This document shows, piece after piece, positions 6,239 to 31,418 of a stretch of DNA of 33,966 nucleotides. The notes under the pieces are model-generated. The model saw only the letters and a program-made list of their open reading frames with translations. It was not told the origin of the DNA and searched no databases. How positions within the stretch are numbered: the stretch's first letter is position 1; the number at the start of each line of letters is the position of its first letter. The translations under genes were made by a program, and so were the position numbers. This DNA comes from Sulfurimonas sp. (GTDB lineage: Bacteria > Campylobacterota > Campylobacteria > Campylobacterales > Sulfurimonadaceae). The stretch lies in NCBI RefSeq assembly GCF_026991475.1, contig NZ_JALXBK010000118.1:1-33966 (forward strand), written 5' to 3'.

Positions 6239-6827
6239 ACTTTTAATAGCGGCATTGACATTTTTGTTTGGAGCATGTAGCTCTCCTAAACCAGCCTTGC
6301 AGGAGTATATTGTAACTCCAAAGGTTTCAGTTGTGCAGAGTAAAATGAGTAAATATAAAGAAAAAATAGTAAAAGTTACCAATGTTTATGCAGCAAAAGA
6401 TTTACACTCTCGTAGTATGTTTTATGTAGAAGATGGCATGAAAAAATTTGCTTATGCTTCCTCAGAGTGGGCTGAGTCACCACAACAATTTGTGCATAAA
6501 GAGGTGATGCAAATGTTGGCACAAACGAAGGTCTTTGGTTTTGTGCAACTACCTAGTTCTAAAGTAGAGAGTGATTTTATTTTAGAGACAAGATTAAATG
6601 ACTTTACGCAGTATTTTGAAGAGAATGATAAAAAATCTTATGCTGTAGTTTCTGTAACTTTTACACTCGTCAATAGCAAAAAACATACAATAGTAGCAAA
6701 TAAAACTTTTTCTTCAAAAATAGATGTAAGCTCATTAAACGCAGTAGGTGGGGTAAAAGCGCTCTCTATTGCATTAAAAGAAGTATTGAGTGATGCTTCT
6801 GTGTGGATAGTGAAGGTTGCTCAATGA
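6228..6827 (+). CDS. ABC-type transport auxiliary lipoprotein
   Basis: Probable outer-membrane or periplasmic lipoprotein partner of the upstream MCE transporter, of the PqiC/ABC_trans_aux kind. It starts with GTG (6228), preceded by a purine-rich AAAAGGGG. The N-terminus KSKLLIAALTFLFGACSS is a lipoprotein signal with lipobox FGAC and Cys17. The mature part (YIVTPKVSV, YVEDGMKKFAYASSEWAESP, VESDFILETRLNDFTQYF) matches the expected pattern of this family: a peptide-display strand, then 'W...P' and 'YRLE..L..F' segments. The family assignment rests on pattern and operon position. It overlaps mlaD by 11 bp and pepP by 4 bp. It carries one AAACGCAG word (6737-6744). Confidence 0.8.
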   Translation: MKSKLLIAALTFLFGACSSPKPALQEYIVTPKVSVVQSKMSKYKEKIVKVTNVYAAKDLHSRSMFYVEDGMKKFAYASSEWAESPQQFVHKEVMQMLAQTKVFGFVQLPSSKVESDFILETRLNDFTQYFEENDKKSYAVVSVTFTLVNSKKHTIVANKTFSSKIDVSSLNAVGGVKALSIALKEVLSDASVWIVKVAQ

Positions 6828-27297: not shown

Positions 27298-27355
<58 letters not shown>

Positions 27356-27372
<17 letters not shown>

Positions 27373-27489
27373 CAACACTTATAACCCCTTAAATACGGAC
27401 TTTTCAACTAATTTATTTAGCTACCGTGCCCATATTGTGCACAAGTGTGTCACTAAATATTTCCTAAATAAGAGGCTTTTTTTACATTC
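27356..27489 (+). repeat. Left direct repeat (attL-like, tRNA-Asn 3' end plus integrase 3' end)
   Basis: 134 bp, aligned without gaps to 30336-30469 with 11 mismatches (about 92% identity). It covers the last 17 bases of tRNA-Asn, an intergenic stretch and the last 12 codons of the integrase fragment. Confidence 0.92.
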
Positions 27490-27791
27490 TCCCTTTTTCT
27501 ATACTTAACATACATTTGAAGTGTCATAGATGAATCACTATGCCCTAACATATTTGAAACCCAAAGTATATCTTCTTTATTCTCTATCATTACAGTAGCA
27601 AATGTATGCCTCATCTGATAGATAGTTCTATACTCAATTTCACATTCTTTGAGTAGTTTTTTCCACTTTGAATCTCTAATGCGTTTAATGTCATAGTAAT
27701 GCTCATCATCTTTGTTTAAAAATACGTAGCTGTTATGTTTCCCAGTAAGTTTGTATTGCTCTTGTAAGTAAGGAAAGAGATTATCTAGCAT
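27453..27791 (-). pseudogene. C-terminal fragment of tyrosine-recombinase integrase
   Basis: The 112-residue open frame is the C-terminal third of a phage-type integrase. RTIYQMRHTFATVMIENKED holds the box II Arg, LGHSDSSMTLQMYVKY has the GH pair and the nucleophile Tyr. The first catalytic Arg and the whole N-terminal arm- and core-binding region are missing: the frame closes at a TGA two codons before the apparent ATG (27791), where IS-related sequence begins. A complete enzyme would have about 350-420 residues. The gene reads towards tRNA-Asn, as usual for tRNA-targeted integrases, and its 3' end lies inside the left repeat. Confidence 0.85.
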
Positions 27792-27804: not shown

Positions 27805-28313
27805 ATAAGGGGTTACTACAGTAGCAAAGAGCTACAGCAAAAACGAAAAAGATAAAAAATGCAAAATTCTCTAAAAATCAATTTATCTATTCAGATAAAA
27901 CAGCAAATAAGCAGATGTATAGATGGGAGCATGAAAACCTTATAAATGAGTACACAACAAAGATGGCTACACAAGAAGCCAAAGCAATAGTTAAAAAGCG
28001 AGGTTCAATAGTAGAACATCCATTTGGAACCATAAAAAGAACCTTAGGCTGGGATCATTTTCTTATGAGAACAAAAAAGAAAGTTCTCGGAGAGAACGCT
28101 CTCATTATGTTTACCTATAATTTTAAAAGATTACTTAACCTCATAGGGATAGCTCTGTTTAAAAAACTCTGCAAGGCTATAAAAGAGAATGATTTAACCC
28201 AAATAAGAGAAGAAATAGCAGTTTATATCTTGGCGTTTGGAGTGAATTTAGGCTGTTTTTTAGAAAGATTTTTGTTTTTACGAAATATCCCAAAAAAGAT
28301 AAGATATTTATAA
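27805..28313 (+). pseudogene. IS1182-family transposase fragment with frameshift
   Basis: The frame from ATG 27915 to 28313 encodes the C-terminal end of an IS1182-type DDE transposase: MYRWEHENLINEY, RGSIVEHPFGTIKRTLGWDH, LGENALIMFTYNFKRL. EHPFGTIKR carries the last catalytic Glu. Just upstream, a different frame (codons from about 27805 to 27900) reads NAKFSKNQFIYSDK, which fits the region expected next in this family, so one base has been lost near 27898-27901. The N-terminal part is absent. No clear terminal inverted repeats were found. The fragment cuts into the integrase remnant. Confidence 0.8.
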
Positions 28314-28413
28314 AATCAAGGTGAGAATTTAGCCTAAATTACGAGGTTTTTAGACTAAGTTCACAGTCTCAAGGGCTTGTTATGATGTCTTACTTTTGAT
28401 GTTTTTTAAAGTT

Positions 28414-28437
28414 ACAACTGAAGTCAGTTGTGTTTTT
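28414..28437 (+). terminator. Rho-independent terminator downstream of the transposase fragment
   Basis: Stem ACAACTG/CAGTTGT with loop AAGT followed by GTTTTT on the plus strand. Confidence 0.5.
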
Positions 28438-28734
28438 AAGCTTTTCTAACTTGCTACTTTTTGTTACTCTTTTGGCTTTTTTTGAGAAGGTTCTTTAATT
28501 TCTTTTCCTCTTTGAATTATCGGCTTTTTCTTTTTTAAAGCTTTTGATTTTTGTAAAAAAAAGCTAACTCTAAGCAAGGTACTTATGCTAGGCTTATAAC
28601 AGTTGAGTATAAAAATATATTATCCATCTTTGCACTCTTTTATGTTTGGCAACGGTAGCTAAATTTTTAAATATTTCAAATTGTTAGATTTCTGTGTCTT
28701 AGGAGTTGTTTTTTAAAGTTGTAGCAGTTTAGGT

Positions 28735-28757
28735 GTTACCAAGTAGAACTTGGTAAC
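28735..28757 (-). terminator. Hairpin at the end of the cargo operon
   Basis: A perfect 10-bp stem (GTTACCAAGT with ACTTGGTAAC, 3-base loop), 13 bp past the stop codon of the proline-rich gene. No T-run follows directly on the minus strand, so it may end transcription weakly or protect the mRNA 3' end. Confidence 0.5.
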
Positions 28758-28770
28758 GAGCAAACAACCA

Positions 28771-29034
28771 TCAAGAAAGAGGTGCTTTTTTTTCAATCAG
28801 TGAAGGAGGTCTTACTCCTTCCTGCGGAGGTGGAACTTGTCCCTGCGGTGGCGGAGGTGGAACTTGTCCCTGCGGTGGTGGAGGTGGAATCTGTCCCTGC
28901 GGTGCGATAGATTTCTGACTATACTCTGAACTTACAAGTGCTTTGTTTATCGGTGTTTTTTCTTGTGCATTTACTACACCTATTCCTTCTACTAACAATA
29001 ATAACAATATGGCACTCAGTCTAATTTTACACAT
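28771..29034 (-). CDS. Secreted proline-rich repeat protein
   Basis: An 87-residue protein with a Sec-type signal peptide (IRLSAILLLLLVEGIGVVNA, cleavage after NA likely) and a short mature part. The centre is built of PPPPPQGQV units (three, the last broken) flanked by SIAPQGQI and PPPQEGVRPPSL. It has no folded-domain features; a flexible periplasmic or surface tether is plausible (inference). AAGGAG lies within the end of the upstream lipoprotein gene, which it overlaps by 8 bp. GC content is locally far above the neighbourhood because of Pro/Gly codons. Confidence 0.75.
   Translation of the reverse strand: MCKIRLSAILLLLLVEGIGVVNAQEKTPINKALVSSEYSQKSIAPQGQIPPPPPQGQVPPPPPQGQVPPPQEGVRPPSLIEKKAPLS
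28823..28903. repeat. Three tandem 27-bp repeats coding PPPPPQGQV
   Basis: Units at 28823-28849, 28850-28876 and 28877-28903, differing from one another at only one to three bases. The period is nine codons, so gain or loss of units keeps the frame and would change the length of the proline-rich tether. Confidence 0.85.
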
Positions 29035-29338
29035 TTTTTTCTCCTTGATTTCTATTTTTTATATTTTGTATCTCTTTTTCTAGAGATTGAATTTTTGCTT
29101 CCATATCGGATAGCTCATTTCCAGAATGTTTACCTATTGATGGTATGTCATCTTTTTGCCTTATGGAAAAGAATATATATATGACAAATATAATAAAACC
29201 AAACAATATTAAACTATCCCCTCTGGAACCCATCACAGGTTCAATTGGATCTATAAAACCACATCCAGACAACAGTAGACCCACTGTCATCAAACTGCCA
29301 AATACTACATATTTGTAAATACTTTTTATGTTTTGCAT
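29027..29338 (-). CDS. Small lipoprotein with transmembrane helix and coiled coil
   Basis: A 103-residue protein. The start at 29338 is chosen for its AAAGGAGATAA site; an ATG 16 codons upstream has none. A lipoprotein signal (YVVFGSLMTVGLLLSGCGF) with lipobox LSGC is followed by a short stretch, a second hydrophobic helix (LILFGFIIFVIYIFFSI), and a charged C-terminal coiled coil (MEAKIQSLEKEIQNIKNRN). If lipidated, it would be anchored at two points. Function unknown. It is the middle gene of the island operon, 31 bp after the XRE gene and overlapping the proline-rich gene. Confidence 0.75.
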   Translation of the reverse strand: MQNIKSIYKYVVFGSLMTVGLLLSGCGFIDPIEPVMGSRGDSLILFGFIIFVIYIFFSIRQKDDIPSIGKHSGNELSDMEAKIQSLEKEIQNIKNRNQGEKNV

Positions 29339-29369
29339 TTTATCTCCTTTTACTGATAATAATCCCCTC

Positions 29370-29894
29370 TCAAAAATCTCTTCCAAGCCTTTTTTCTATC
29401 TGTTTTTTTTCCCATTCCGGAGTCATATAGTCAAAAGGTTTGAATAGCTTAACAGCATGTATAACTATGCCGATAGTCCAACCAAACATAAGCCAAATAA
29501 TCCAAAGTAGATGTGGGGGAACAACAAGATCATGCGGAGGAACAATAAGTTTTATAGTCAGCAACACAATAACAACAGCAATGAATATGGTAAGATGAAT
29601 ATAAAATTCTTTGAGTGTTTTGACATATTCCATTGCTTCTCTTTCGTCATCAGCAATATGTATATGTGTAGTTTCCATCTTTTCTTTACTGCTTGCCCCG
29701 CTTCCCTCGTGCAGAATTTCTTCTTGTAGTACCTGAGCATCTATATTGAAAGCTTCTGCCAATAGTCTGATAGACTCAAGCCCCGGTTTTTCTCCTTTTT
29801 CAATACGCTGTATCGTTCTTGTACTTAAGCCTGTTAATTCCGCAAGATGTTCTTGCGACCATGATTTTTGTAATCTAAGTTTTCGAACTAGCAT
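29370..29894 (-). CDS. XRE-family regulator with C-terminal 2TM domain
   Basis: A 174-residue membrane-attached regulator. The start at 29894 follows AAAGGAG; an upstream ATG (29957) lies before the promoter -10 and is rejected. Residues about 3-58 form an XRE helix-turn-helix (VRKLRLQKSWSQEHLAELTG, LSTRTIQRIEKGEKPGLESI). A linker follows, then two transmembrane helices (about 98-115 and 125-145) in a 2TM-type domain ending DYMTPEWEKKQIEKRLGRDF. This arrangement holds a DNA-binding domain at the inner membrane. It has its own promoter and a nearby inverted repeat, so it probably controls its own operon. Confidence 0.85.
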   Translation of the reverse strand: MLVRKLRLQKSWSQEHLAELTGLSTRTIQRIEKGEKPGLESIRLLAEAFNIDAQVLQEEILHEGSGASSKEKMETTHIHIADDEREAMEYVKTLKEFYIHLTIFIAVVIVLLTIKLIVPPHDLVVPPHLLWIIWLMFGWTIGIVIHAVKLFKPFDYMTPEWEKKQIEKRLGRDF

Positions 29895-29922
29895 TTTTTC
29901 TCCTTTGTTGCTGACTATGAAT

Positions 29923-29951
29923 ATTATAGCACTTTTTGTAATGTGTGATAA
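29923..29951 (-). promoter_or_regulatory. Promoter of the island cargo operon
   Basis: On the minus strand: -35 TTATCA (29946-29951), 17-bp spacer, -10 TATAAT (29923-29928, perfect), 28 bp before the XRE start codon. Confidence 0.6.
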
Positions 29952-29952
29952 C

Positions 29953-29980
29953 GACAAATAGCTGACATAATATATTTGTC
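29953..29980. promoter_or_regulatory. Candidate operator for the XRE regulator
   Basis: Perfect 8-bp inverted repeat GACAAATA-N12-TATTTGTC, one base upstream of the -35 box of the cargo promoter. Half-site spacing of about two helical turns suits a dimeric helix-turn-helix protein. Confidence 0.45.
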
Positions 29981-30335
29981 ATAGGATTTTCGTGTAATTG
30001 ACGAGAATAGGTATCAGTGATTCATCGTTTTTTATGTTCTTACAGTTACAAGGTAAGTCAGTTGAGTTTGTAAGGGTCTTTTGCTTACGACTGACTATTT
30101 TATTAACACACATTTTATGTAGAAAATCCAGAAAAGTCAATATTAACACATTATATTTTTGTGTGTTAATTAGAAGATTTGGGCAATAACACACATAATA
30201 TTACTTAAAGATATTGTAGGAGAGATGAATCAAATAGCTACTCAGTAGCTAAATATATGTCTTTTAATGTCTTATTTTAATAGATTAGAGTCTCAAAATT
30301 GGCTATTTTAGGGCTTCTATATTTTTTTAAGATTC
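29981..30335. other. Non-coding right part of the island
   Basis: 355 bp, AT-rich, with no credible gene. TATTAACACA is present at 30101-30110 and 30141-30150, and TGTGTTAAT at 30162-30170 forms a 9-bp stem with the second copy (11-base loop). Short open frames on both strands lack ribosome-binding sites. Confidence 0.55.
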
Positions 30336-30469
30336 TCCAGCATCCGGAGCCACAACACTTATAACCTCTTAAATACGGATTTTCCAACTGATTTATTTAG
30401 CTACTGTGCCCATATTGTGCCTAAATGTGTCACTAAATATTTCCTAAAAAAGAAGCTCTTTTTACATTC
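30336..30469 (+). repeat. Right direct repeat (attR-like)
   Basis: 134-bp copy of 27356-27489 with 11 substitutions and no gaps. It carries the last 17 bases of tRNA-Asn and, on the minus strand, the last codons of a second integrase ([11 protein letters not shown] against NVKKASYLGNI in the left copy). It ends where the radical SAM gene's stop codon begins. Confidence 0.92.
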
Positions 30470-31418
30470 AAAGCTCTTGTGGCTTGATTCGCTTTCTTTT
30501 GAGATTATTTTTTGGTATATAAAATTCTAAATTTCCTACTCTATTTACGATCACTGCGTTTGACTCAAGTAATTCTTGAAGATTTAGCTTACTCTTTTCA
30601 TCAAAAAGCAGATTTATATCTTCCATAGTGAGTGGGCGTTTATCGAGTGTATTGAGTATTTCTTCTTTTGTGTGGTAACTGTTGTTTGGTTCAGCATGTA
30701 GGCGTGAAGCGATGTGTATTGGTAGCTCTTTATCAAACATAAGGGCTATGTTATGAAGCTCTTTGTAACTTACTCCTACAACAGGATAAGCGGGGGGTCT
30801 ATCGATTGTCCCGATGTCCACTCTTACTGCGTTTATCTCTTTAAGGGCTGCGTTTAGCTTTGCTATTTCCTCTTTTGTATCATTTAAACCATGCACAAAA
30901 AGTACTTCGATGTAGAGCTTTCCTTTATAAAGATGAGAAAACTCTTTTACTTTTTGCACAATATTTTCTATGTTTATGCTCTCATGCGGTCTATCTATTT
31001 TGTTAAAGACTTCACTTGAGACTGCATCAAGTGAGAGTTTTACTTCATCAAGTTTTAAAAGTGTATGAAAGACATTATTATCAACCAAAGTAGCACTATT
31101 TGTCAAAATAAGTGTTGCAGTATTGCCTTTGATTTTGTCTATAGCATCTATGAGCTCATTGAGGTAGGGGTAGAGCGTGGGCTCACCATTCGCTGTCAGT
31201 GTGATGGCGTCTATTTTATCATGGAGGTGTTTTGTAAGCTCTTGTATGATTGTATCTACGCTTACACTCTCTTTTTGTTTGGAAACTGTTGCACTTGGTG
31301 CTAGTTCGCAGTAGAGACAGTCAAAGTTACACTGCTTAAACGCAGGGGAGAGGTCTATGCCCAGACTCATGCCAAAACGGCGTGAGTTTATGGGACCAAA
31401 TATAATGTTATTTTCCAC
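30468..31418 (-). CDS. Radical SAM protein (COG0731-like)
   Basis: A 316-residue iron-sulfur enzyme. The cluster motif CNFDCLYCE (Cys-x3-Cys-x2-Cys) follows a typical opening [41 protein letters not shown] is the SAM-binding Gly/Glu-Pro-Thr region, and [16 protein letters not shown] is a family signature. COG0731 includes the wybutosine-type tRNA enzymes, but the substrate of this bacterial branch is unknown. It overlaps hemE by 11 bp and is probably co-transcribed with it. Its TGA stop spans the edge of the tRNA island: two of its bases belong to the repeat. Four octamer words lie in the gene (30554, 30827, 30848, 31338). Confidence 0.9.

Follow-up and report, generated by a model that had tools for sequence, protein, structure and literature searches.

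Membrane-bound regulators and integron cassettes

In the one-component regulators of the ToxR/CadC type a DNA-binding domain is fixed to the inner membrane, and these proteins are characterised by a winged helix and a periplasmic sensor domain. The locus considered here lies in a stretch of 33,966 nucleotides from Sulfurimonas sp. (contig NZ_JALXBK010000118.1 of assembly GCF_026991475.1), the whole of which is referred to as the window, and is headed by the gene for a regulator, P1, whose DNA-binding domain is likewise predicted to be held at the inner membrane, but which differs in having an XRE/Cro helix-turn-helix (HTH), an anchor of two helices at the C-terminus and phased direct repeats. 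The closest counterparts are proteins that combine the HTH_3 domain with 2TM (PF13239). P1 is like these in both domains and in the invariant motif WEKKQxEKRL, and the window shares with the genes of such regulators the 11-bp TGTCR direct repeats defined here, in the form of two boxes; however, P1 heads a three-gene operon, whereas most of the relatives seen are single genes. A further counterpart is the pair formed by an HTH-2TM regulator and a DUF6622 protein, in which the regulator is alike but DUF6622 stands where the window has two other genes, P2 and P3. An operator of HTH-2TM genes was not described in the open-access literature searched, and in passages of PMC11237479, PMC12542790 and PMC7688217 the term "2TM" is used in other senses.

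The setting of the operon is best compared with a cassette of a sedentary chromosomal integron. There is an attI-like leader with a Pc promoter, the units run in one direction, an attC-like site lies behind the last gene and gene-less cassettes are adjacent, but the window differs in having no intI in cis, no foldable attC downstream and no recognisable attC upstream.

Layout and expression signals of the operon

The operon and its control region comprise the following features, given from upstream to downstream:
29952 to 29967, minus strand: candidate operator TGTCA-N6-TGTCG (TGTCAGCTATTTGTCG), a pair of boxes at an 11-bp step, of a kind conserved ahead of HTH-2TM genes
29923 to 29951, minus strand: operon promoter TTATCA-17-TATAAT, from a scan for sigma-70-like sites, its -35 abutting the operator
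29370 to 29894, minus strand: P1 gene, HTH_3 plus 2TM regulator, 174 aa (open reading frame, Pfam)
29027 to 29338, minus strand: P2 gene, lipoprotein-like, 103 aa from ATG (sequence, ribosome site, codon test)
28771 to 29034, minus strand: P3 gene, secreted-type with PPPPPQGQ repeats, 87 aa (sequence, codon test)

P1, P2 and P3 are real genes that form a compact, promoter-led operon. An earlier note, made from the letters of the window, had described three open reading frames on the minus strand with a 31-bp gap between P1 and P2, an 8-bp overlap between P2 and P3 and a promoter of their own, and this description holds in each respect, the promoter being TTATCA-17-TATAAT at 29951-29923. Every one of the three genes is preceded by a ribosome site of the AGGAG type, and codon use is better in the coding frame than in the other frames, with equal scores reached by 0 of 500 shuffles for P1, 3 of 500 for P2 and 0 of 500 for P3. 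The promoter has a TG ahead of its -10 and is among the two top-scoring of 11 sigma-70-like sites in the scanned region (28500-30500), shuffled versions of which hold 7.4 such sites on average, so that the count of 11 is no proof of promoters.

P1 and its relatives

The reading of P1 as an HTH protein with a 2TM domain is borne out by Pfam, in which both domains score above their cut-offs (HTH_3, E 3.9e-13 and 49.7 bits against a cut-off of 23; 2TM, E 1e-21 and 77.2 bits against 24.8). A structure model built from 15 sequences (mean pLDDT 76) places the HTH helices at residues 2-62, followed by a low-confidence stretch at 65-77, two long helices at 82-117 and 127-151 and a C-terminal helix at 159-170. 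The C-terminal WEKKQxEKRL shows no variation in P1 and 14 aligned relatives. A search with the structure gave nothing at E <=0.001 (best 3.3e-3), and among the 50 matches listed of 471 the titles were mainly those of HTH repressors and controllers. P1 fits 13 PADLOC models (HTH_VI, capH, RmrA, Control_protein and others), all inside residues 3-101, and antitoxin models for P1 in Pfam and NCBIfam fell below cut-off.

A scan of genome contigs yielded 21 relatives of P1, the full-length ones chiefly from Gammaproteobacteria, with one from a Campylobacteraceae bin (L014) and one from a Treponema bin (L019); partial and Flavobacteriaceae matches were also obtained. Full-length relatives were absent from the 134 other genomes of the genus, two of which had short HTH-only matches. 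In the sample of the order one of 148 other genomes (G028) had a full-length relative and two more had short matches, and in the sample of the phylum 3 of 396 other genomes gave matches at 1e-10, none spanning the whole length. Nothing was found in phage records at 1e-5. Regulators of the P1 type are rare in Campylobacterota and are mostly lone genes of Gammaproteobacteria. A query with the HTH-2TM protein of L016 also matched 47 Lactococcus plasmid records in the plasmid collection, and in a Flavobacteriaceae bin (L033) 2TM is also joined to a histidine kinase.

The neighbours of the relatives at L015-L033 are common to close groups only (two Enterovibrio loci; L021 and L025; the Kangiella loci L028-L030) and differ elsewhere, one locus (L020) having a tandem of two HTH-2TM genes. 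The earlier note had suggested that the three genes could be an envelope-stress or surface module and had staked that view on their being found together elsewhere; they were not, within the genomes, plasmids, phages and viral contigs searched, the genes behind P1 relatives being different ones and P2 or P3 lying behind none of the relatives whose neighbours were inspected. Since most relatives of P1 stand alone, P2 and P3 need not be its partners. At two loci (L002 and L014) the regulator is directly followed by a membrane protein some 165 aa long; that of L014 is a DUF6622 protein (Pfam E 2.3e-17), which that of L002 resembles by eye, and DUF6622 is annotated behind the HTH-2TM regulator at L111 and L112. 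An HTH-2TM gene followed by a DUF6622 or DUF6622-like membrane protein occurs in both Campylobacterota and Enterobacterales at these four loci.

A conserved candidate operator upstream of HTH-2TM genes

The candidate operator (29967-29952) directly adjoins the -35 element from which the operon would be transcribed. Upstream regions of 150 nt, taken from P1 and 18 relatives (the window, L002 and L014-L030), were compared with control windows from the same loci. GTC-N8-GTC, a step of 11 bp or one helical turn, was present ahead of 15 of the 19 HTH-2TM genes, whereas 1.7% of the control windows (30 of 1717) contained it. Among spacings of 5 to 24, that of 11 (15/19) and its double, 22 (10/19), stand out, the next being 14 (3/19). 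The four genes that lack an exact 11-bp pair are those of the Kangiella loci, in which the boxes are weakened. Relatives added later, seven of whose loci were hand-picked from the listed matches, have at least three boxes in 10 of 11 cases (four of four for the first four); the exception (L108) has an annotated IS110 transposase that ends 113 nt ahead of the regulator start, and the ten include an HTH gene of Leuconostoc whose product has hydrophobic stretches but no Pfam 2TM match.

The pattern TGTCR-N6-TGTCG occurs 36 times in 726,431 bases, some of the loci overlapping, and 30 of the occurrences precede listed HTH-2TM starts, whilst three GTC boxes in step were found 18 times before such starts and twice elsewhere in the same bases; the loci have HTH-2TM genes at their centre, and since many of the loci are related these counts are not independent trials. 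Four of the other six two-box matches precede genes for HTH-membrane proteins (L088, L089, L027 at 635 and L031, a broken copy), and the remaining two (L024 at 1434 and L020 at 3881) do not. The pattern occurs once in the window, as compared with a mean of 0.07 in shuffled versions, 7 of 100 of which had one. In the genome as a whole there are two matches (the window and contig C52) and the reversed control pattern gives four; with one other match to set against four for the control, there is no sign of a regulon. The presence of the operator upstream of HTH-2TM genes, and the position of the window copy against the -35, point to autoregulation, and from its domains and this operator P1 is most likely a membrane-tethered autoregulator. 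One candidate assignment in the same place, in which GTCGTTATCA (29955-29944) was the R' box belonging to an attC upstream, was dropped, the sequence being that of the conserved operator.

P2 and P3

Judged from their sequences P2 and P3 are of the envelope type, as had been supposed. P2 contains LLSGC, which resembles a lipobox, together with a further hydrophobic helix and a helix at its C-terminus, and a single-sequence model (mean pLDDT 70) has helices at 3-27, 38-64 and 73-102; the P2 queries, that for the model included, started at 29341 and comprised 104 residues, with one extra K ahead of the ATG. P3 has a signal-peptide-like start followed by PPPPPQGQ repeats that are encoded by a 27-nt DNA repeat, and on account of its low complexity it was compared with family libraries only. 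There was no match to P2 in the 134 other genomes of the genus, in plasmids, in phages or in viral contigs. Matches at E 0.001-0.007 in eight genomes of the order were set aside after inspection of their open reading frames, being partial hits on a membrane or coiled-coil segment of some other protein, or lying within or opposite longer open reading frames. Family matches of P2 to TIGR04561 (E 0.003, 17.7 bits against a cut-off of 30) and RIC3 (E 0.069) were below every cut-off, and neither P2 nor P3 has a family above cut-off in Pfam or NCBIfam. In PADLOC and PHROGs there was no match for P3 and the matches for P2 were weak at best, no PADLOC model being assigned to either.

The absence of toxin, nuclease and transporter motifs from all three products, remarked on at the outset, was also found in four family libraries, none of which gave such a family above cut-off for P1, P2 or P3. 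A type II toxin-antitoxin arrangement was looked for and no toxin family was found in P2 or P3 beside the XRE-type P1. Likewise, no member of the phage-shock (Psp) families of envelope stress (PspA, PspB, PspC, PspF) was listed for any of the three in Pfam or NCBIfam.

The operon in a decayed integron

The flanks of the operon contain the following features of integron type:
30094 to 30211, minus strand: integron leader with intI promoter, Pc and attI-like region (matches in G149, G177 and G174)
30112 to 30140, minus strand: Pc-like promoter TTGACT-17-TAAAAT, 10 of 12 positions in the site scan
30018 to 30092, minus strand: gene-less cassette copy 1, internally shortened, 77-88% identical to arrays L057 and L058
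28594 to 28714, minus strand: long-type attC behind the operon, with its 3' half kept and its pairing arm lost (attC model R2)
28376 to 28594, minus strand: gene-less cassette copy 2, 68-82% identical to stretches of arrays L057 and L058
28368 to 28387, minus strand: 5' part of the next attC (R'' and the start of L''), cut by an IS1182-type end

Read along the minus strand, the order is leader with Pc, shortened gene-less cassette, operator and operon, and decayed attC, after which come a gene-less cassette, an attC cut by an insertion sequence (IS), an integrase remnant and tRNA-Asn. The leader is 78-83% identical over 54-121 nt to copies in genomes G149, G177 and G174, in the last of which the counterpart of 30142-30208 lies between intI and its array, and the leader of L082 has TTGCTA-17-TAAAAT at a position that is equivalent, by eye, to that of Pc. 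No match was found in the leaders of the genome's own intI (L078) or of those in G179 (L079) and G159 (L057). The stretches 28376-28685 and 30018-30092 match arrays beside the intI of G159 (L057) and in G177 (L058), the latter having no adjacent intI, with pieces of intI only, on contig C50. When the whole 34-kb window was compared by BLAST with five integron stretches (E 0.01), the only matches were 28005-28685, of which 28005-28383 is IS, and 30018-30208. The real flanks scored 98 bits as against 40 for the best of 200 random look-alikes.

The downstream attC was recognised with a model (R2) of nine long-type sites from which the window copy was left out, the match at 28594-28714 reaching 51.9 bits (E 6.8e-8) and the second in the window 15 bits; a short-type model (R1) gave 12 bits at the same place. 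No stable fold was found for this site (z -0.1 and -0.3, as compared with -4.2 to -4.9 for three intact sites), and the region of an upstream attC (30017-29944) matched neither R1 nor R2 and had an unremarkable fold (z -0.6). The genome itself possesses an intact integron integrase, not in cis and located on contig G000:C13 (408 bits, cut-off 265), together with seven attC-model matches on seven contigs, one of them beside intI, which do not include 28594-28714. Within the genus an integron integrase above cut-off was present in 52 of 135 genomes.

That the operon sits in an integron remnant is well supported by these sequence comparisons. It is likely that the three genes were once a single mobile cassette, a reading that falls short of proof because the upstream attC is missing. 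Such cargo would fit what is described of integrons elsewhere, cassette products being commonly secreted or transmembrane proteins (PMC12444791) and gene-less cassettes in Vibrio being able to serve as promoters (PMC11014356).

Comparable remnants were seen at other places. The same genome has two more leader-like copies lacking intI, one (L064, G000:C63, 8146-8840) followed by a YCII protein gene and an attC start cut by an IS, the other (L065, G000:C107, 6175-6895) by a CopG-type antitoxin gene and a weak attC-model match of 25 bits. In G179 (L085, about 6390-6660) the start of intI, which covers profile positions 2-39 and includes a stop, precedes the palindromic stretch that lies at 30233-30312 in the window, which suggests how the window may have lost its intI.

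Beyond the integron features the remnant is bounded by those of a tRNA island:
27298 to 27372, plus strand: tRNA-Asn, the island attachment gene
27356 to 27489, plus strand: left island direct repeat, 134 nt, 92% identical to the right copy
30336 to 30469, plus strand: right island direct repeat, 134 nt
27453 to 27791, minus strand: tRNA-targeting tyrosine recombinase, C-terminal remnant (Phage_integrase, E 3.7e-12)
27915 to 28367, plus strand: IS1182-family remnant, with the last 132 aa of the transposase plus the IS end (NF033551, E 3.5e-16)

The NF033551 match is partial and so falls below its cut-off, and the IS remnant is 90.8% identical to L082 over 380 nt. Gene-less cassette copy 2 ends in TCATAACAAG, where it is cut by the IS1182-type end. 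The junction of TAACAAnnCnnnGAG with ACTGTGAAC lies at one position of the attC arm in all four copies inspected (the window at 28368-28387, L064 at about 8122, L078 at about 13300 and L082 at about 383), and the IS1182-family element seems to target attC sites. In another genome (G158; L050, 5061-5237 and 9021-9197) a tRNA-Met/tRNA-Asn pair occurs twice, about 4 kb apart, and the island repeat is matched at each of the two.

A proposed self-regulated cassette and its alternatives

The reading we favour, and consider reasonably probable, is that of a self-regulated envelope module which a dying integron has left behind as cargo. P1 would be held at the inner membrane and would bind the TGTCR boxes, thereby probably repressing its own operon, activation being the less likely outcome. 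P2 would have a lipid anchor outside, one more membrane helix and a helix in the cytoplasm, and either a change in the membrane or contact of P1 with P2 might shift the binding of P1, and the levels of P2 and of P3, the exported proline-rich protein, would change with it; both proteins would have their role in the envelope. Integron recombination is the probable route by which the genes arrived, and they appear now to be frozen in place, the downstream attC having lost the stem needed for recombination.

The chief alternative, which we regard as unlikely but worth serious consideration, is that P1 is an autoregulator of the ordinary selfish or housekeeping kind, with P2 and P3 as unrelated small genes that are co-transcribed with it by chance and form no module. 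The relatives of P1 are mostly lone genes, P2 has no convincing relative and cassette arrays do place unrelated genes together, all of which such a view would accommodate. It accords poorly, however, with the close spacing of the genes (31-bp gap, 8-bp overlap), the one promoter and the three good ribosome sites, and with the membrane protein DUF6622 that stands behind P1 relatives in two phyla.

Some integron cassettes carry defence genes, and the same genome keeps its CopG-type antitoxin gene in a similar remnant. It might therefore be asked whether the operon serves in anti-phage defence or superinfection exclusion, as a cassette whose membrane sensor, lipoprotein and secreted effector would block entry or kill the cell. 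Transmembrane and secreted proteins are common in integron cassettes (PMC12444791), but PADLOC matches P1 alone, within residues 3-101 as expected of its HTH, P1 and P2 are unmatched in phages and there is no toxin or nuclease domain above cut-off, so that this explanation is improbable. It is likewise improbable that the genes are a decaying island set with no present function, intact only through recent arrival, for although the integrase, the IS, the attC and gene-less cassette copy 1 around them are broken and the leader lacks intI, three frames, their ribosome sites, the promoter and the operator are all intact amid these decayed neighbours.

A broader form of the favoured reading, that of a self-regulated envelope module, can be put forward tentatively. 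The HTH-2TM proteins could be an undescribed, cross-phylum group of membrane-tethered autoregulators that bind 11-bp TGTCR repeats and whose output gene is exchangeable, P2 and P3 being a new pair of envelope effectors acquired through the integron. If so, several P1-type monomers would sit side by side at the membrane along the same face of the DNA, the gene behind an HTH-2TM regulator would be absent, DUF6622 or P2-P3, and the integron would have picked up one self-contained, self-regulated unit.

What is new here is the conserved operator upstream of HTH-2TM genes and the decayed integron array as the setting of an operon, neither of which the earlier note had recognised. A widespread family of regulators, for which no study was found in the open-access literature, gains a concrete candidate for its DNA target, one that is conserved from Campylobacterota to Gammaproteobacteria and that also precedes, in one case, a related HTH-membrane gene in Leuconostoc. 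The locus also suggests that integron remnants can hold multi-gene cargo with a regulator of its own, and it may show the gain, and then the fixation, of an accessory envelope module.
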